Source: Polyangiaceae bacterium
GTDB lineage: Bacteria; Myxococcota_A; Polyangia; Polyangiales; Polyangiaceae
Length of the DNA stretch: 32,194 nt
Direction: 5' to 3'
NCBI GenBank assembly: GCA_020848455.1
Contig: JADLAB010000425.1
Location: forward strand, 1 to 32,194
Below are positions 4,749 to 14,746 of the stretch, piece after piece. The translations under genes were made by a program, and so were the position numbers. Each line of letters starts with the position of its first letter. The stretch's first letter is position 1. Under the pieces are notes generated by a model. That model made no database searches. It was not told the DNA's origin and saw only the letters and a program-made list of their open reading frames with translations.

Positions 4749-7700
4749 ATGGAACAAGTTCTAGGGCTCGCCGAGCGCATCCGGGCCTTGAAGGCGATCG
4801 CCGCAGAGATGCGCGAGGGGCGGATCCACATCCTGCTCCTGCCCGAGATCGACCGCATCCTGGCCCTGCCCGAGGACGTGACGAGCGCCTCGGTCGGCGA
4901 GCGCGAGGCCATCGCGCGGCAGCTGCGCGAGTACGAGCAGACCTTCGATCGGCTCGGCTACACGCTGCTCGAGCAGGTGATGCCGACGACCGGCGTCTCG
5001 CCGATCTTCCGCATCGTGCAGGCCGCCGACGAGTTCAAGGCCGCCCTGCGCCACCGCATCGGCAAGACCTTCACCGTGGCGGGCCAGGCGCTCGTGCTCG
5101 ACGCCACCCACCTCGAGGCGCTCGGCCGCTACTCCCTCAGCATCGGCACGCCCCCCGTCACCAACGGCATGCGTGCGCTCGTGGCGCGCACCGTGTTCGG
5201 CAAGGAGCTCCGCGAGCTCGGCGGCTACACCGAGACGCTCGCCTGCGATCCGGTGCCGCTCGAGCGCCTGCTGTCGCTCTTCGGCGAGCTCGTCGATCAG
5301 AGCCTGCACTACTCGACCGCGAGCGAGGAGCGCGCCTTTCTCGCCGAGGCGGCCGAGTTCGTCAACTTCGAGGGCGCGACGCTGTTCATTCGCGCGGTCA
5401 TCACCGAGAGCCCGGACCGCGTCATCGACCTCATCCGCGACCACGTGTTCGACAAGTTCGGCGCGCGCGCCTCCACGCCGGTCACGGTGGTGCCGGGCGA
5501 GGACCGGCTCGACGACGCCCTGCTCGCTCGCATGCGCGCCGAGCCGAACCACGTCTACGTGGCGCGCGTCACGCGCATCCCGCACCACCTGTTCGACGTC
5601 GAGCCGGGTCACGCGAGCGACTGGCGCAGCGTGATCGGCCGGCTCTTGCTCATCGACTGCTCGCGCCGCGCGCGCATGTCGAACTCGACCGTGGTGTTCA
5701 CGCTCTTCCCGCACGTCGCGCGCACCCTGCGCAACGTGCAGACGAGCTTCGCCGGGCGCCCGGCCAACACCCAGCTCGTGCTGCGCCGCATCCTCGAGCG
5801 CTTCTCGCCCGGGGCGCTCGGCGCCATGCGCGCGGCCCTCGAGCGCGGCATCGCCTTCCACGAGAGCGAGGGCGCCGACGCCGCCACGGTCGAAGAGGTG
5901 CGGGCGCAGGAGTGGCGCCGTCAGGCCCTGTTCGACTACCTCGGCCTGAAGAAGCTGCGCCGCATGGTGGCGTTCCTCGAGCGCGTCGCGGCGAGCGACG
6001 ACGCCGCTCGCCGCGTCCTGTCCGACGAGCTCGAGGAGAGCGTGGCCGCGAGCTGGATGCACTACCTCTACAAGAGCCTGCCGCCGAGCTACCACGCGGC
6101 CGTGGTGCCCGGTGGCGGGCGCGGCGCCCTGACGCTGGTCGGCGAGTGGCACGCGCGCGAGGTCGAGGCGGCGCTCGAGCATTTCCTGGCGAACGATCTC
6201 GACGCTTGCCGTGCGCGGCTGGAGGAGATCAAGCGCGGCCTCGCCATCCCGACCACGAGCTCGGACGAGATCGAGGCGGCGATGCGCTACTCGCAGCTCC
6301 AGAGCGCCTCGCCCACGCAGTGGCGGCCGGCCGAGCCGGGCCCGACCCACGCCGACTACCTCGGCCGCGCCGCCGCCTACCGCTTCGCCGACCTCGGCGC
6401 GCGCCTCGCGCGCCGCGCCGAGGAGGGTCTCGACCGCGCGGCCTTCGCCAACGTGACCGGCGCCGCGGCCGCGTTCCTGAAGCAGGCCATGGCGAAGGCC
6501 GGCCTCGGTGCGCTGCACGGGCACCTCGAGGCGCGCGTGGGCCAGAAGGTGGGGCGCGCCGAGCGCACGGTGCGGCGGCTCGTGACGCCGTTCCAGGACG
6601 TGGTGCGCGCGCTGCAGCGCTCGATGGACGGCTTGAAGGGCGACCTCGATCCCCAGGCCGTAGGCGAGATCGAGGCCCTCTTGCAGCTCATCGGGCGCGG
6701 CGCGTTCTACCCCACGCTCGTGCTGTCCGAGATGTCGTGGAGCTACCCCGACGTCTTCCCCGAGAAGGACTTCCCGGCGGCCTCCACCCTGCGCGTGCCG
6801 CTCAACGACGCCCACGAGATGGACCCGATGGCGCTCTGCGCGCGGCTCGAGGAGCTGCGCTACCTGTTCCGGCGGTTCCCCGAGATCTTCCGGCTCTACT
6901 GCCGCAGCATGCTCGTCGTCGTCAACTCGCCCAACAACCCGACGGGCGTCGTTTACCGGCGCGAGACGGTGCTCAAGCTCCTGCAGATCGCCGCGGCGTA
7001 CGACCTCACGGTGCTCGACGACGACGCCTACCACAAGCTCGTCACGCGCAGGCGGAAGGCGCGCGAGGGCGACGCCAGCATGGCGCAGATCTACGAGCGG
7101 CACCGCGGCCAGCTCGGCCGGCCGGTGCGCATCGTCACCGTGGGCGCGACCACGAAGGCCCTGCAGGGCTCGGGCGACCGCACCGGCCTCGTGCACTCGA
7201 ACGTGCGCGAGGTCGTGGCCTTCACGCGCGAGCGCGCCCCCGAGCCGCACCTCATGTCGCTCTACCTCACGCTCGTGAAGCTCGAGTCGGGGCGCGCGGC
7301 CGCACGCTACACCGGCGCGGTCGAGGCGCTCGCCGGTGCGCTGCTCGACCCGCGCGCGCGCGTCACGCCGTCCGAGCGGCTGCGCGCGCTCTGCGCGGAG
7401 GCGCACGCCGACGTGAAGGACGAGCGCTTCCCGGTGCTCGCCTTCGAGACGCTGCTCGAGGGCTACGAGGAGCTCCTGCGCCTCGAGCACCGCGACGCCA
7501 GCCGGGCCGAGCTGTCCGAGGCCCTGAGCGCGCTCGTGCGGCAGCTCAAGATGCTGCGCCTCGAGGTCCGGCTGCGCACCGACATCGAGGAGCGCTTCGC
7601 GGCCGTCGCGGCCGCGCGCGCCAAGGCCATGCCGGGTGCCGAGTTCATCGAGCCCGAGGGCGCCTTCTACGCCTGCGTGCGGCTCTGTCCGGCGGGCGAC

Positions 7701-10700
7701 GACCGCGGCGTCCAGGAGTTCCTGCGCGCGCTGGCGCGGGCGCGCAAGGTCGACCTCACCTACGCGGGACGCGGCTACGTGCGCCTGTCGCTCGGCGGCG
7801 CCCTCGACGGCACCGAGCAGGGCTACCGGCGCTACGCCGCCGTCATCGAGCTCTACCTCGGCCTCGTCGCGCGCTACTGGCAGGCCTTCGACGCTGCCGG
7901 GCGCGATCCGGCGGTGCTCGAGCGCCTGTTCACGCCTCACGGCGGCGATCCGGTCGCGGCGGCGCTCGACGATCTCGCGCCGCTGCTCGCGGCGGCGGAC
8001 CGCGCCGCGCGGCCCCGGGGCCTCGGCGTCGAGCCGAGCGAGCGCGGCATCGTGCACTGCATCGAGGAGGGGCGCTCGTCGGCCGACAAGGTGTTCGTCG
8101 CCTGGCAGCCGTGCGCGACCGTCGACGAGATGCTCCAGGCGCGCACCTTCCAGGTGCTCTACCGGCGCCTCCTGCGGCGCGTGTGGCGGCGCCACCCCGA
8201 CCTCGTCGACTGGTCGTTCGAGCGCGTCGAGAACCAGTACGGGCCGCTCGCCTGCCTCGCCGCCTACCACGACCGGCAGCTCATCGACCCGGTGTTCCGC
8301 GACCTGCTCCTGCGCCTCTACGACGAGTGGCACGGGCCGAACACCGTCAAGGTGCTGGCGGCGCGGCTCGAGACCGGCTCGCACGGCGAGAAGGTCGCGG
8401 CGCTGCACGGCATCCACCGCGCGGTGCACGACCTGTTGAACGAGCTCCTGCACGCCTTCGAGGTGCCGGAGGAGCGCCTGCGCGCCAGCACGACCTTCGA
8501 GATCGGCTACGAGGAGCTCGAGGGCCTGCACGCGCACGCGGCGTTGCCGGCCTTCCTCGGGCGCATCGTGGAGGGCACGCACTTCGCGGGCGCCATCACC
8601 GCGCTCGATCCGGCGCCGAGGTACACGACCGGCGCCGCCACGCGCGTGTCGGACTACCGCTACGGCTTCGGCCGCCGCGACGGGGGCGCGGCGCAGAAGG
8701 GCCGGAGCTTCCCCGAGCGCGCCTTCTTCCTGCGCCGGCTCGAGCGCTTCGCCGACGGCGCCAACCTCGCGCACTACGTGTGCCTCGCCCTGCCGGTCGG
8801 GCCCTTCAAGATGCTCGTCCTCATCCACAAGGCGTGCTTCCACCTGGTGAGCGATGCCTTGCGCCTGTTCCCGCAGATCGAGGCCTACCAGCAGCGCCGC
8901 GAGCTCGACGGGCTCGAGTGGGACGCCGTCCTGCTCTTCGGCATCCCCTCGAAGATCCTCGGGGACAGCTACAAGACGGGCTACGTGCTCGAGCCGAAGG
9001 CGAAGGGCGGCATCCTGCCCATCGCCTGGGTCGCGCGCGAGGACGCCACCGACTACGTGGGCTTCTTCAAGAAGTCGCTGCTCACGATGCACAACGAGCT
9101 CACGAAGGCGCTGGGTGGCATGCCGATCCACGGCGCCATGTTCACCATCACCTTCAAGAACGGCCTCCGGAAGACCCTGGTCTTCTCGGCCGACAGCGGC
9201 ACGGGCAAGAGCGAGACCATCACGGCGATGATGGACCAGCTCGTGTCGGGCGAGGGCGTGGCGGCGGAGGTCAGGCGCGTCGACATCCTCGCGGGCGACA
9301 TGCTGTCCCTGTGGCGTGGCGCGGACGCGCAGCTCTACGCCTTCGGCACCGAGCAGGGCGACTTTCTGCGCCTCACGGACATCACCGAGAGCTGGAAGGC
9401 GCGCTTCGGCGATCTGTTGCAGCGCGGCAGCTACTCGAACCTCGACCACCCGAAGAACCCGCGCGTCACGATCCCCGGCATCTGCGACCCGAAGAAGCTG
9501 CTCATGCCGACGCGCGTCAACGGCTTCTTCTACATCGACAACTACGCGGCCGTGGAGCGCCACGCCGTCGAGCTCGCCGAGGACCCGCACCACGTCCTGA
9601 AGCACGTGCTCGTGCGCGGCCTGCGCAAGAACAAGGGGACCAGCGGCGACCAGCCGAGCCTGCGCGCCGGGCTCGAGTTCGCCGGACAGGGCGCGCTCGT
9701 CACGCGCTACCGCCACGCCATCGACGAGCTGCTCGACTGGCAGGAGCGCACCGTCGAGGGCAAGCGCGAGACCTGCCTCGCCTACCGCGACGGCGCCGAC
9801 GACGTGCGCACGGCTCGCGACGTCGTCGACGCCGCCTTCCGCGGTCGCACCTTCCGCCACGACGGCCAGAGCCATGCCGTGCTGTCGGTCCGTCACGACG
9901 TGCTCGCCAACCTGTTCTGGCTCGAGTGCGAGGGCGGGCGCAGCGTGGCCCTGTCGCGCCCGGTCTACGACCAGATCTACGAGCCGCTCGTGTCGACTTT
10001 CTGCGGCAACCCCTTCGTCGATCCGGAGGGCATGGACGCCGTGCTCGGGCGCTTCGCCGACACGATGCGCGACGCCAAGGTGCACACGGGCGTCATCCGC
10101 ACCGAGCTCGCGCGCCCGGGCTTCGAGTTCGCCGGCCCGGCGCGCGCCGCGCGCGACATCATCGCCTTCCTGCTCGAGGACGAGGAGGTGAGCGCGCGCT
10201 TCCAGCGCAACAAGGACAAGGTGCAAAAGGCGATGCGCCGCACCTACGGTGGTGTGCTCGAGGCCGGCACGAACCTCCCGATCGAGCTCGAGGGCTACAA
10301 CCTGCTGCTGCTCGAGGCGCACGAGAGCCTGCACGTCGCCTTCACCGACGCCGCCGGCGCCTCCTTCACGCTCGCGACGCCCTATTACCACTACCAGCCG
10401 ACCGCCGAGCCGCCGGACAAGACCTTCACCCCGGCCATTGCGATGCCCGACATGCTGGCCGCCATCGCCGACATCTGCCGCAACCCCGACTACGCCTTCG
10501 ACCTCGCCGAGCTCTACGTCGATCCTGCCCATTACGATTGCATTCGCTTCTGGAACAGCCGCGAGGAGCTCGTCTACCAGGTGCTGCTGGTCCACGGCGT
10601 CGTGATGCTCGGCTCGCCCGCGAGCGAGGTCGCGCGCTTCCCCTCCGAGGTGCGCAAGGCCGACCACGTCGCCGGGCACATCCTGGCGCGCCGCGCCCCG

Positions 10701-10799
10701 CTGCAGGGTGCGGCTTCCCGCCCCGAAGCCACGCCCGCCGACGGCGTCCCGGCTCCGCCGCCGTCGGCGCCGTATGGCGTGCCGATCGGCCAAGCGTGA
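4749..10799 (+). CDS. Giant fusion: PLP aminotransferase-like domain plus PEPCK/HprK-like P-loop domain
   Basis: A 2016-residue cytoplasmic protein with no signal peptide or membrane segment. Residues 1 to about 580 match nothing I recognise. The aminotransferase class I/II core follows: SPNNPTG at 727-733 (cofactor-contacting Asn), DDDAY at 757-761, the Schiff-base lysine K803 in GATTKAL, the phosphate-binding R811 in GDRTG, and a late YVRLSLGG (substrate carboxylate Arg). About 1040-1400 is helical and unassigned. At 1480-1490 there is SADSGTGKSET, a P-loop (K1487) resembling both HPr kinase (GDSGxGKSE) and ATP-dependent PEP carboxykinase, which share a fold; AGDMLSLW and YAFGTEQGDFLRL follow where metal-binding strands are expected. 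The last 62 codons are duplicated at 14548-14735. The catalytic residues look intact. The combined reaction is unknown; an aminotransferase coupled to a kinase or carboxykinase step is inference. Confidence 0.9.
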   Translation: MEQVLGLAERIRALKAIAAEMREGRIHILLLPEIDRILALPEDVTSASVGEREAIARQLREYEQTFDRLGYTLLEQVMPTTGVSPIFRIVQAADEFKAALRHRIGKTFTVAGQALVLDATHLEALGRYSLSIGTPPVTNGMRALVARTVFGKELRELGGYTETLACDPVPLERLLSLFGELVDQSLHYSTASEERAFLAEAAEFVNFEGATLFIRAVITESPDRVIDLIRDHVFDKFGARASTPVTVVPGEDRLDDALLARMRAEPNHVYVARVTRIPHHLFDVEPGHASDWRSVIGRLLLIDCSRRARMSNSTVVFTLFPHVARTLRNVQTSFAGRPANTQLVLRRILERFSPGALGAMRAALERGIAFHESEGADAATVEEVRAQEWRRQALFDYLGLKKLRRMVAFLERVAASDDAARRVLSDELEESVAASWMHYLYKSLPPSYHAAVVPGGGRGALTLVGEWHAREVEAALEHFLANDLDACRARLEEIKRGLAIPTTSSDEIEAAMRYSQLQSASPTQWRPAEPGPTHADYLGRAAAYRFADLGARLARRAEEGLDRAAFANVTGAAAAFLKQAMAKAGLGALHGHLEARVGQKVGRAERTVRRLVTPFQDVVRALQRSMDGLKGDLDPQAVGEIEALLQLIGRGAFYPTLVLSEMSWSYPDVFPEKDFPAASTLRVPLNDAHEMDPMALCARLEELRYLFRRFPEIFRLYCRSMLVVVNSPNNPTGVVYRRETVLKLLQIAAAYDLTVLDDDAYHKLVTRRRKAREGDASMAQIYERHRGQLGRPVRIVTVGATTKALQGSGDRTGLVHSNVREVVAFTRERAPEPHLMSLYLTLVKLESGRAAARYTGAVEALAGALLDPRARVTPSERLRALCAEAHADVKDERFPVLAFETLLEGYEELLRLEHRDASRAELSEALSALVRQLKMLRLEVRLRTDIEERFAAVAAARAKAMPGAEFIEPEGAFYACVRLCPAGDDRGVQEFLRALARARKVDLTYAGRGYVRLSLGGALDGTEQGYRRYAAVIELYLGLVARYWQAFDAAGRDPAVLERLFTPHGGDPVAAALDDLAPLLAAADRAARPRGLGVEPSERGIVHCIEEGRSSADKVFVAWQPCATVDEMLQARTFQVLYRRLLRRVWRRHPDLVDWSFERVENQYGPLACLAAYHDRQLIDPVFRDLLLRLYDEWHGPNTVKVLAARLETGSHGEKVAALHGIHRAVHDLLNELLHAFEVPEERLRASTTFEIGYEELEGLHAHAALPAFLGRIVEGTHFAGAITALDPAPRYTTGAATRVSDYRYGFGRRDGGAAQKGRSFPERAFFLRRLERFADGANLAHYVCLALPVGPFKMLVLIHKACFHLVSDALRLFPQIEAYQQRRELDGLEWDAVLLFGIPSKILGDSYKTGYVLEPKAKGGILPIAWVAREDATDYVGFFKKSLLTMHNELTKALGGMPIHGAMFTITFKNGLRKTLVFSADSGTGKSETITAMMDQLVSGEGVAAEVRRVDILAGDMLSLWRGADAQLYAFGTEQGDFLRLTDITESWKARFGDLLQRGSYSNLDHPKNPRVTIPGICDPKKLLMPTRVNGFFYIDNYAAVERHAVELAEDPHHVLKHVLVRGLRKNKGTSGDQPSLRAGLEFAGQGALVTRYRHAIDELLDWQERTVEGKRETCLAYRDGADDVRTARDVVDAAFRGRTFRHDGQSHAVLSVRHDVLANLFWLECEGGRSVALSRPVYDQIYEPLVSTFCGNPFVDPEGMDAVLGRFADTMRDAKVHTGVIRTELARPGFEFAGPARAARDIIAFLLEDEEVSARFQRNKDKVQKAMRRTYGGVLEAGTNLPIELEGYNLLLLEAHESLHVAFTDAAGASFTLATPYYHYQPTAEPPDKTFTPAIAMPDMLAAIADICRNPDYAFDLAELYVDPAHYDCIRFWNSREELVYQVLLVHGVVMLGSPASEVARFPSEVRKADHVAGHILARRAPLQGAASRPEATPADGVPAPPPSAPYGVPIGQA

Positions 10800-10810
10800 C
10801 GGGTCGCCCG
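10612..10810. repeat. 199-bp direct repeat, copy 1 (3' end of giant gene)
   Basis: Identical to 14548-14746 at 195 of 199 positions with no gap (constant offset of 3936). It covers the last 62 codons and stop of the giant gene plus 11 bases. Of the four differences three are synonymous in the gene's frame and one changes Ala to Val. It marks the left border of the caspase/MBL insertion. Confidence 0.95.
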
Positions 10811-12249: not shown

Positions 12250-13352
12250 GGTTCCTCGTGGCACGTGAAGGTGAACGCGTTCCAGTCCACGCGCCCGGCG
12301 TCTCGCGCGAGCACGGTGAGGGCCGCCCGCGCCTCCGCGCGGCTGTCGTCGAGCGGCCAGCGGCGCAGCGTGTCGAGCAAGACCGAGTAGCTCGTCGTGA
12401 AGAGTGGACGCCGGCCGGCCGCCCCGAGCAGCAGTCGAGCGCCCGCCGCACGCGTGGCTTCGTCCTGCAGCCAGAGGGCGCCCAGCAGGACCGCACCGTC
12501 GGGAAGCCAGGCGAAGTCGCGCGCCAGATTCTCGAGCCAAGACAGACGGTCGCGCAGCGTTCCGGCCCGATACATCACGAGCGCCCCGAGCGCTGCACCG
12601 ACCGGATCGGAGTACTTGGCCTGCAGCATGTCGTCGGCCGTTCCGGCCACGACCGACTGCGCGTGGAACACGCGCCCCTCCGCCAGCATGTGCTGCACGG
12701 CGCTCGACACCTTTCGCTCGGGGTGGATCCAGGCGCGCGCTTCGGTCCCTTCGCGATAGTGCTCGAGGCGCAGGACGCAGGCGGTCTCGGCGCGGCGATG
12801 CCCACAGGGGTTCAGCGGGAGGCAGACGCGCCTGCGCCGCCCCCCGAGGTCGAGCACGGCGTGGGGGACCTCGGTCAAGGTCCCGGCAGGCACGAGCTCC
12901 CACGTGCCCCGCGCCGCTCCGTCCAGCACCGCGCCTTCGAGCGCGACGATGCGGCACACGTCGCTATCCGGAGCTGCCCAAGCCTCGTCACCGCGCTCGC
13001 CGCCGGCGCGGCCGCCGCCCTCGTCGTCGCCGTAGTCGATGAGCCCGTCGCGATCGCGTGCTGCCGACCGCGTGAAGCGCGCCGATGAAGGGGCGGTCAT
13101 GAGCCCGGCGGGATCGACCTTCGAGAATTCGACTTTCGTCTCCTTGCCCTCCGTCACCGTGACGAGACGCGCATGGGCGCGGCCGTCGTCCATGACCGCA
13201 CGCACCTGGTACACACCGGGCGTGAGCTGGGCCTCCCCACCGTTCCGAATCTCGCACACGAGGGCGAGCGAGCTGTCGCGGATCTCGATGGGCGTGAGGC
13301 TCGTCAGCCGGTAGGACGAGATGTCGAGGGCGGCCCTGATGGTCCCCTTCAT
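12246..13352 (-). CDS. Unknown middle protein of the caspase/MBL cassette
   Basis: A 368-residue protein with no signal peptide, overlapping both neighbours by four bases (ATGA), so its translation is coupled to them. Residues 1-76 read as a small beta-sandwich (IEIRDSSLALVCEI, then LTPGVYQVRAVMDDG and LVTVTEGKETKVEF). A low-complexity acidic/Gly linker (DYGDDEGGGRAGGERGD) follows, then a beta-rich part with several Cys, and from about residue 230 an all-helical region (DPVGAALGALVMYRAG, LSWLENLARDFAWLPDGAVLLGALWL) that looks like stacked helices. The order suggests an adaptor: a beta-domain that may bind the caspase or a ligand, and a helical scaffold. I do not recognise a named family. Its fixed position between protease and hydrolase genes is the main clue to its role. 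Confidence 0.82.
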   Translation of the reverse strand: MKGTIRAALDISSYRLTSLTPIEIRDSSLALVCEIRNGGEAQLTPGVYQVRAVMDDGRAHARLVTVTEGKETKVEFSKVDPAGLMTAPSSARFTRSAARDRDGLIDYGDDEGGGRAGGERGDEAWAAPDSDVCRIVALEGAVLDGAARGTWELVPAGTLTEVPHAVLDLGGRRRRVCLPLNPCGHRRAETACVLRLEHYREGTEARAWIHPERKVSSAVQHMLAEGRVFHAQSVVAGTADDMLQAKYSDPVGAALGALVMYRAGTLRDRLSWLENLARDFAWLPDGAVLLGALWLQDEATRAAGARLLLGAAGRRPLFTTSYSVLLDTLRRWPLDDSRAEARAALTVLARDAGRVDWNAFTFTCHEEP

Positions 13353-14497
13353 GACGCGACCTCCACTTCGGCCCTGCTGGCAGGCGGTTCGACGCTGATG
13401 ATCTCCTGCGTCTCGGCATAGGGTGCGCGCGGCAGGACGCTCACCCGATAGAGGCCCGCCGCGAGCTTGCGTACGAGCGGCCAGGCGGCGTCGTGCTCGA
13501 GCACCTTAGTGTTGCCCCGAAACAGCGCAGCCCTGGCCTCGGGCTCCGCCGCGGGCGGCGACAGCCCGAGCGTGAGCTCCGCGGTCGGAGGCTGCGGAAA
13601 GACGTGGAGGACCTCGGCCGTCGTGCCCACGAGGCCCGTGAGCTGCACCACCTGCTGGGCCGAACCGGAGGCTTCGAGCACCAGGGGACGAAGCTTCTCG
13701 GCGAGGCTCGCGGTGGTGACCCGCCACGAGCCGCCCGCGTGCTTCGGCCCCACGGCGGCGTCGCACCGCAGGCAGCGGAGCAGCGCCTCGTTGAAGAGGC
13801 TCACGCCGTGCGTCCTCGCCCAGGCGATCCCCCGCGGTCCCGAGGCGAGGAACAACGGCGACGCCTCGACCTCTCCGACCGGCCTATCGCCCCCGAAGGC
13901 TCCCTGCAGCGACTCGAACTGCCGTGCCACCTCGGGACGCTGGCGACAGCTATCGACGAACCAGAACTGGCGAGCCGCGGCCGTGCTGCCGGCGAGCGAC
14001 TCGTGGAGCCCCTTCATGTCGAAGGCGGCCCACAGCGCAGCCTCCTGCCCATCCCCGGCGTAATCCTCGAGCAACACGATGGCGCCGTCGGCCGTGAGCT
14101 GCACGCCGTGGCCGGCGACGTAGACGATGGCGGTCGCGTCGCGCTCGGCACGACAACGGCGCCGGAACTCGAGCCAGTCGGCCATGACGACGCTCCGCGT
14201 CGCGCCGTCCGCTGCACCCAGGCGTGCGCGCACCTCGGCGTGTACCGCCTCGTCCTCCGATGGAGCGAGGCACACGAAGAGGCTCGCGAGGCTCGTACTC
14301 GGGTTCCTGTACTCGCCGAGGACCCACGCCGCGAACTCCGACGCCGACCGTGCCGCGCTCGTCAGCTGCTCGAGGTTGGAATCGATGCCCGCTTGCGTGG
14401 GCTCGCTACCGTCTTCGAGGTGGCGATAGCGACTGACCCCGAGCACGAACACGTGGGTCCGAGGTCCGGCGGGCCTTTCGTCGAGGATGGCAACCAT
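13349..14497 (-). CDS. Caspase-like protease (C14 family) with C-terminal beta-domain
   Basis: First gene of the cassette, 382 residues from the ATG at 14497. That start has GGGAG five bases upstream and gives MVAILDERPAGPRTHVFVLGVSRY, the usual first strand of a caspase fold; the longer open frame runs back into the direct repeat and is not used. The catalytic pair is visible: H130 in IVYVAGHGVQ and C184 in FWFVDSCRQ, both after hydrophobic strands, with LFLASGPRGIAWA as a later strand. Residues about 305-382 form a beta-rich domain (ELTLGL, AALFRG, LAAGLYRVSVL, IISVEPP) resembling the N-terminal domain of the next protein. Bacterial caspase-like proteases often act as effectors in anti-phage or cell-death systems; that role here is inferred from family and context. 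No signal peptide. Confidence 0.88.
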   Translation of the reverse strand: MVAILDERPAGPRTHVFVLGVSRYRHLEDGSEPTQAGIDSNLEQLTSAARSASEFAAWVLGEYRNPSTSLASLFVCLAPSEDEAVHAEVRARLGAADGATRSVVMADWLEFRRRCRAERDATAIVYVAGHGVQLTADGAIVLLEDYAGDGQEAALWAAFDMKGLHESLAGSTAAARQFWFVDSCRQRPEVARQFESLQGAFGGDRPVGEVEASPLFLASGPRGIAWARTHGVSLFNEALLRCLRCDAAVGPKHAGGSWRVTTASLAEKLRPLVLEASGSAQQVVQLTGLVGTTAEVLHVFPQPPTAELTLGLSPPAAEPEARAALFRGNTKVLEHDAAWPLVRKLAAGLYRVSVLPRAPYAETQEIISVEPPASRAEVEVAS

Positions 14498-14516
14498 GGT
14501 TCTCCCAAGGCCCACG

Positions 14517-14545
14517 ATCCCACCACCGTCCCGCGTGCGAGGCAA
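14517..14545 (-). promoter_or_regulatory. Candidate promoter for the caspase cassette
   Basis: On the minus strand TTGCCT and TGGGAT are separated by 17 bases, ending 19 bases before the caspase start codon. The match to sigma-70 consensus is partial. Only 50 bases lie between the start codon and the direct repeat, so the cassette promoter must be here or inside the repeated gene tail. Confidence 0.28.
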
Positions 14546-14547
14546 CC

Positions 14548-14735
14548 GCTCGCCCGCGAGCGAGGTCGCGCGCTTCCCCTCCGAGGTGCGCAAGGCCGAC
14601 CACGTCGCCGGGCACATCCTGGTGCGCCGCGCCCCGCTGCAGGGCGCGGCGTCCCGCCCCGAAGCCACCCCCGCCGACGGCGTCCCGGCTCCGCCGCCGT
14701 CGGCGCCGTATGGCGTGCCGATCGGCCAAGCGTGA
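14548..14735 (+). pseudogene. Displaced 3' end of the giant gene
   Basis: This copy of the last 62 codons (SPASEVARFPSEV to YGVPIGQA and stop) has lost its gene body. The frame is open upstream to an ATG at 14487, but that part is antisense to the caspase start region and has no visible ribosome site. The tail differs from the intact copy by one residue (Ala to Val). It probably represents the original gene end from before the insertion. Confidence 0.8.
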
Positions 14736-14746
14736 CGGGTCGCCCG
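14548..14746. repeat. 199-bp direct repeat, copy 2
   Basis: Partner of 10612-10810, with 195 of 199 identical positions and no gap. It ends seven bases before the stop codon of the neighbouring lipoprotein gene and marks the right border of the insertion. Confidence 0.95.

Follow-up and report, generated by a model that had tools for sequence, protein, structure and literature searches.

A single Polyangiaceae gene joins an aspartate-aminotransferase-like domain to a divergent phosphoenolpyruvate carboxykinase-like domain

We describe a gene, located in a 32,194-nucleotide stretch of DNA (the window; contig C429 of a 742-contig, 9.2-Mb Polyangiaceae assembly), whose 2016-residue product is a new architecture built from two known enzyme families, a pyridoxal phosphate (PLP) aminotransferase and phosphoenolpyruvate carboxykinase (PEPCK). 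The gene is one continuous frame under purifying selection, both families are recognized in it by homology, and its catalytic positions are invariant. As to function, we favor, at a probability of about 0.4, a bifunctional enzyme that would interconvert aspartate, oxaloacetate and phosphoenolpyruvate (PEP).

The open reading frame (4749–10799, + strand) displays a coding signature (GC3 0.97, GC2 0.46), and its M-E-Q-V start is kept in orthologues. Whole-length orthologues, 53–94% identical, were found in seven further genomes (Myxococcales/delta metagenome-assembled genomes, MAGs, of one myxobacterial class): G001 (94%), G076 (63%), G031 (62–63%), G068/HKST-UBA02 (56%), G016/ADurb.Bin207 (55–56%), G084 (one open frame, 53% over residues 1–1301 and 64% over 1340–1964) and G017 (57% and 65% on two contigs with overlapping ends). 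Given this conservation, the coding bias and a dN/dS of 0.195 overall against the sister genome, the fusion, first proposed in the initial annotation of this DNA, is a real, maintained, single gene. We rejected the possibility that the gene is split or carries a frameshift, since the seven full-length copies lack internal stops and the break in G017 is a contig break only; likewise, the 2010-residue antisense frame (4761–10793, − strand) was rejected as a gene, being a high-GC mirror frame with a GC1 of 0.97. The distribution of the fusion is patchy; the scan of genome contigs used two N-terminal peptide patterns only and gives weak grounds for calling the fusion absent from other phyla. PADLOC returned no anti-phage defence match for it. 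The initial annotation knew of no characterized protein with this domain order, and we likewise found no description of the fusion in the open-access literature (open-licence papers only); the fusion, its inserts and the PEPCK-like subfamily described below appear to be undescribed, while both enzyme families are already known. The features of the gene are as follows, with residue numbers referring to the protein.

4749–10799, + strand: whole gene, 2016-residue aminotransferase/PEPCK-like fusion (open reading frame, coding bias, orthologues, dN/dS)
4749–4994, + strand: helical N-terminal extension, residues 1–82 (50% invariant; no known family)
4995–5363, + strand: predicted aminotransferase N-terminal segment, residues about 83–205, with the SLSIGTPP loop (VIA-align range; Y188)
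5364–6068, + strand: insert 1, residues about 206–440 (strands alternating with helices in a low-confidence model)
6069–6194, + strand: predicted aminotransferase strand and helix, residues about 441–482, with G-G-R458-G-A-L (model; motif aligned by eye)
6195–6698, + strand: insert 2, predicted long helices, residues about 483–650 (model)
6699–7343, + strand: predicted aminotransferase large domain, residues about 651–865 (PF00155, hhalign, W664/N730/D758/Y761/K803/R811)
7344–7583, + strand: insert 3 within the small domain, residues about 866–945 (hhalign gap)
7584–7892, + strand: predicted aminotransferase small domain with the putative carboxylate-binding R1012, residues about 946–1048 (fold match, hhalign, invariance)
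8040–8588, + strand: ancillary region, residues 1098–1280 (also aligned in stand-alone PEPCK-like relatives)
8589–9683, + strand: PEPCK-like core, residues about 1281–1645 (R1299, tentatively; Y1436, K1441, K1442, H1461, P-loop, D1517, R1572, lid G1630-T1631)
9684–9983, + strand: fusion-specific insert, residues about 1646–1745 (not in stand-alone relatives; dN/dS 0.79)
9984–10178, + strand: C-terminal PEPCK-like segment, residues about 1746–1810 (hhalign/alignment)
10179–10796, + strand: C-terminal domain, residues 1811–2016 (not in stand-alone relatives)

The N-terminal half (about 83–1048) is predicted to be a class I domain resembling the Ibeta aspartate aminotransferases (AspATs), split by three large inserts. 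Residues 686–827 match Aminotran_1_2 (PF00155) at 45.5 bits, above the cut-off of 19.7, the best NCBIfam match of the aminotransferase part is an archaeal aspartate aminotransferase (8e-14), its nearest solved sequences are the AspATs of Thermotoga and Thermus, and hhalign gave 98.7% for the large domain (about 651–865). An AlphaFold model of residues 1–1097 (six sequences; mean pLDDT 64, pTM 0.60, with low confidence past residue 187) retrieved fold-type I aminotransferases in Foldseek (E about 1e-6) and aligned with a Z of 16–19 in VIA-align over residues 83–1048. Based on this range, the aminotransferase starts near residue 83 and is not confined to about 600–1040. The borders of the inserts (about 206–440, 483–650 and 866–945) are estimates from the model, hhalign gaps and motif reading, and insert 1 had no family match in the Pfam scan.

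With the Ibeta AspATs of Thermus thermophilus and Thermotoga maritima the fusion shares the fold type, the SPNNPTG and D-x-x-Y motifs, the PLP lysine (K803, codon at 7155–7157), the arginine that contacts the PLP phosphate, the C-terminal VRLS arginine and the SYP[DE] motif. It may also have a basic residue at the position of Lys109 (pig numbering), the AspAT lysine to which acidic substrates bind through their distal carboxylate: the candidate is R458, whose G-G-R-G-A-L context was matched by eye to the G-G-K-Q-A-L of the Thermus enzyme. Y188 was matched, also by eye, to AspAT Y70. The fusion differs from these enzymes in its three inserts of about 80–240 residues, its N-terminal extension and its fused second enzyme, and it is 17–21% identical to them over the aligned parts.

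The C-terminal half (about 1281–1810) appears to be a full-length, divergent member of the PEPCK superfamily. Single-sequence Pfam and NCBIfam scans gave weak PEPCK matches, and the score against PEPCK_ATP (PF01293), 10.4 bits, is below the cut-off of 26.5. In hhalign, where each comparison was a single profile pair, a profile of this half with two stand-alone relatives matched eight ATP-PEPCKs (the Pck of E. coli, that of the genome itself and six from Myxococcota) with a probability of 97%, and a profile of the stand-alone relatives, including a Limosilactobacillus fermentum protein, did so with 98%. Since the AlphaFold model of residues 1096–2016 (five sequences) reached a pLDDT of only 43, the assignment of a PEPCK-like fold rests on profiles and motif spacing. 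The spacing is identical in the two proteins: Y1436-x4-K1441-K1442 with H1461 19 residues on in the fusion, and Y207-x4-K212-K213 with H232 19 residues on in E. coli Pck. Further on, K1487/S1488, D1517 and N-x-R1572 correspond to K254/T255, D269 and N-T-R333; these residues and the lid motif follow the same order as in ATP-PEPCK (PckA, EC 4.1.1.49). In PEPCK, K212/K213, H232 and D269 (K1441/K1442, H1461 and D1517 in the fusion) serve the Mn site, K254/T255 (K1487/S1488) belong to the P-loop and R333 (R1572) is the PEP/oxaloacetate residue. The matches of Y1436 and R1572 are clear, whereas that of R1299 to R65 is tentative. Unlike PckA, the fusion has a P-loop (SADSGTGKSE, with K1487 at 9207–9209) that ends in GKSE and not GKTT, a Gly or Ser in place of D268, the first Asp of the GDD motif, an insert of 100 residues and extra flanking domains.

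The initial annotation had called this half a PEPCK/HPr-kinase-like P-loop domain; the first part of that description holds, while the HPr-kinase likeness is limited to local motifs. HPr kinase/phosphorylase (HprK) does share with the fusion a P-loop of the form G-D/x-S-G-x-G-K-S-E, with a His-Gly before it and an Asp after it, yet it has no counterpart of K212/K213 or R333. HprK as the closest family was rejected, as nine HprK sequences matched the C-terminal profile with 11%, against 97% for PEPCK over the same alignment (36% for the stand-alone profile), and PF07475 was absent from the Pfam matches of the fusion up to an E of 1. The annotation had also left residues 1–580, 1040–1400 and 1700–2016 unassigned. 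The first of these is not a separate domain, in view of the aminotransferase fold from about 83, and 1281–1400 and about 1746–1810 appear PEPCK-like; residues 1–82, the inserts, 1098–1280, 1646–1745 and 1811–2016 are indeed without an assigned family.

The catalytic residues which the annotation had read as intact, among them K803 and K1487, are present in all eight genomes without change (the others being N730, D758, Y761, R811 and R1012 in the aminotransferase); Y188, W664 and R458 are equally invariant. All 18 positions that we selected as catalytic from the two enzyme families are invariant across the eight genomes, against a background of 33% over the whole protein (hypergeometric p 1.6e-9). 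Pseudo-enzymes usually lose catalytic positions, and a pseudo-enzyme in either half is thus unlikely, judging by the sequences. The same observation speaks against a sensor or regulator that would report the metabolic state by binding one of PLP, aspartate, oxaloacetate, PEP and ATP, turn over hardly any substrate or none, and use its helical inserts to contact partners, as the catalytic positions of both halves were retained over 53–94% identity. We consider such a role improbable, even though the gene stands alone without pathway neighbors, is patchily distributed, is redundant with canonical enzymes and encodes long helical inserts. That one half alone is catalytic, the other being a structural or allosteric remnant, we consider very improbable: the loss of the first Asp of GDD and the weak constraint on 1646–1745, the least constrained region of the protein, would fit such a remnant, but the core at 1281–1645 is 50% invariant, level with the best-conserved parts of the protein.

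In the function that we favor, the PLP domain would, through K803, interconvert aspartate and oxaloacetate, using a 2-oxoacid (2-oxoglutarate, for example) as the partner, and the PEPCK-like domain would interconvert oxaloacetate and NTP with PEP, CO2 and NDP, at a site composed of Mn2+ held by K1442/H1461/D1517, the P-loop lysine K1487 and R1572. The net outcome would be PEP made from aspartate or, in reverse, CO2 fixed from PEP into aspartate, and the unstable oxaloacetate would possibly never be released between the two sites. We infer aspartate as the donor, oxaloacetate/PEP as the substrate, the direction, the choice of NTP and the channelling. Counting in favor of this converter are the best scores against Ibeta AspATs, the fold matches over 83–1048, the basic R458 matched by eye to the Lys109 position, the preserved set of PEPCK residues, the invariance of all 18 catalytic positions, a relative annotated as PEPCK, a canonical AspAT-PEPCK gene pair in the same order, the co-occurrence of that pair with the fusion and the lack of a detected canonical PEPCK in G016. 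Counting against it are the sub-threshold PEPCK_ATP score, GKSE in place of GKTT, the Gly/Ser at D268, the tentative R65 match, the low pLDDT of the C-terminal half, the ATP- and GTP-PEPCKs that the cell already has, a neighborhood that is not conserved, and the pair and the fusion not always occurring together. A more specific version, a new class of 'aspartate-PEP interconvertase' that passes oxaloacetate directly to the fused carboxykinase, is perhaps anaplerotic in anaerobes and carries a GKSE PEPCK distinct from ATP-PEPCK, GTP-PEPCK and HprK alike, seems doubtful to us.

The main rival to the converter is another phosphoryl acceptor: the PEPCK-like domain would be a kinase acting either on a small-molecule product of the transaminase or on a protein serine of the kind that HPr kinase phosphorylates, with the PLP domain using a different amino acid, in a special pathway outside oxaloacetate/PEP metabolism. 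This we regard as rather unlikely. It would account for the HprK-like P-loops of the fusion and of its stand-alone relatives, for the score under the PEPCK_ATP cut-off and for the presence of canonical PEPCKs in the genome, and the large inserts and the extra 200-residue C-terminal domain could bring another specificity. However, the PEPCK Mn2+ site (K1442, H1461, D1517) and the putative PEP-binding R1572 are kept without exception, the HprK profile match is poor, and we noticed no gene for an acceptor of the HprK type in the vicinity.

The canonical enzymes bear on both readings. In the same genome (G000:C314) a canonical AspAT gene, the only other aminotransferase match of the fusion there, is followed by a canonical ATP-PEPCK gene, the stop of the one overlapping the start of the other; these are the fusion's two families in the same order, but as two proteins, highly diverged from it. 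The genome also encodes a GTP-PEPCK, and with both PEPCKs present the fusion would be dispensable for ordinary gluconeogenesis. Such redundancy points to a special role or to a different acceptor, and it is the reason why we put the converter reading at 0.4. Among 59 relatives, the adjacent pair was found in G000, G001, G017, G025 and G031 and the fusion in G000, G001, G016, G017 and G031, the two occurring together in four (Fisher p 5e-5, shared ancestry ignored). G025 has the pair without the fusion, G016 and G076 the fusion without the pair, and G084 an AspAT without an adjoining PEPCK. In G016, an incomplete MAG, a canonical ATP-PEPCK was not found by protein search, nor a GTP-PEPCK by profile. 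None of the 17 neighboring genes is shared near the other orthologues, barring a short repeated-tail overlap and one weak match.

Oxaloacetate, an unstable compound, is where amino acid metabolism, the TCA cycle and gluconeogenesis branch. If the enzymes on its two sides are fused in nature, substrate channelling could be studied directly in the fusion, and so could the way in which adjacent genes evolve into fused enzymes; if the converter reading holds, one protein may lead directly from an amino acid to a sugar precursor, or back.

By sequence comparison, the C-terminal half belongs to a candidate 'GKSE' subfamily of PEPCK-like proteins, which appears undescribed and also exists in stand-alone form. 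Stand-alone proteins of about 600 residues occur in two Myxococcota genomes (G086 and G300); they share with the fusion the PEPCK-like domain and the ancillary region N-terminal to it, have GDSGxGKSE in place of SADSGTGKSE, and lack the aminotransferase, the 1646–1745 insert and the C-terminal 200 residues. The 569-residue L. fermentum DVR01_11245, annotated as phosphoenolpyruvate carboxykinase, shares 34% identity with a Myxococcota stand-alone protein across 80% of its length (E 7e-80) and the same percentage with the fusion across 249 residues (E 1e-19), and its PEPCK_ATP match (2e-5, 23.9 bits) is slightly below the 26.5 cut-off. The motifs of this subfamily are intermediate between PEPCK and HprK, and the PEPCK annotation in lactobacilli is apparently without biochemical proof. 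Sampling 379 genomes of the phylum gave only four with a match at an E of 1e-10, three of which were fusions, indicating that the subfamily is rare in the phylum.

In addition to the fusion, the genome under study (G000) encodes two canonical PEPCKs, one ATP-dependent and one GTP-dependent; the gene of the first forms a pair with an AspAT gene:

G000:C314 and G000:C157, the contigs carrying the canonical PEPCK genes
Locus L080 (G000:C314), 6387-9298, gene pair for a canonical aspartate aminotransferase (AspAT) and a canonical ATP-PEPCK; the stop codon of one overlaps the start codon of the other

The pair was found again in four related genomes (G001, G017, G025 and G031). Its aminotransferase has a conserved C-terminal tail, RWALDP...VRDW, which is also present in the AspAT of G084, there with no PEPCK downstream.

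The window has a second copy of the fusion gene's 3' end, in the form of a 199-nt direct repeat (10612-10810 and 14548-14746, 98% identical), and in the 3.7-kb stretch separating the copies lies:

13349-14668, minus strand, caspase-like protease gene

In the sister genome G001, the contig ends ~116 nt beyond the fusion gene, and a piece related to the repeated tail lies on G001:C65. The arrangement may have originated by insertion or as a duplicated tail.

An open frame of 2010 aa (4761-10793, minus strand) runs antisense along the entire fusion gene; its GC1 of 0.97 shows that it mirrors the GC-rich coding strand opposite and is no gene.

The GKSE PEPCK-like subfamily, to which the PEPCK-like domain of the fusion belongs, also has a member in Limosilactobacillus fermentum:

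L111:5701-7410, plasmid gene annotated as PEPCK

Its product scores under the Pfam cut-off and further matches DUF4914 weakly; the PEPCK annotation is putative and may be wrong.
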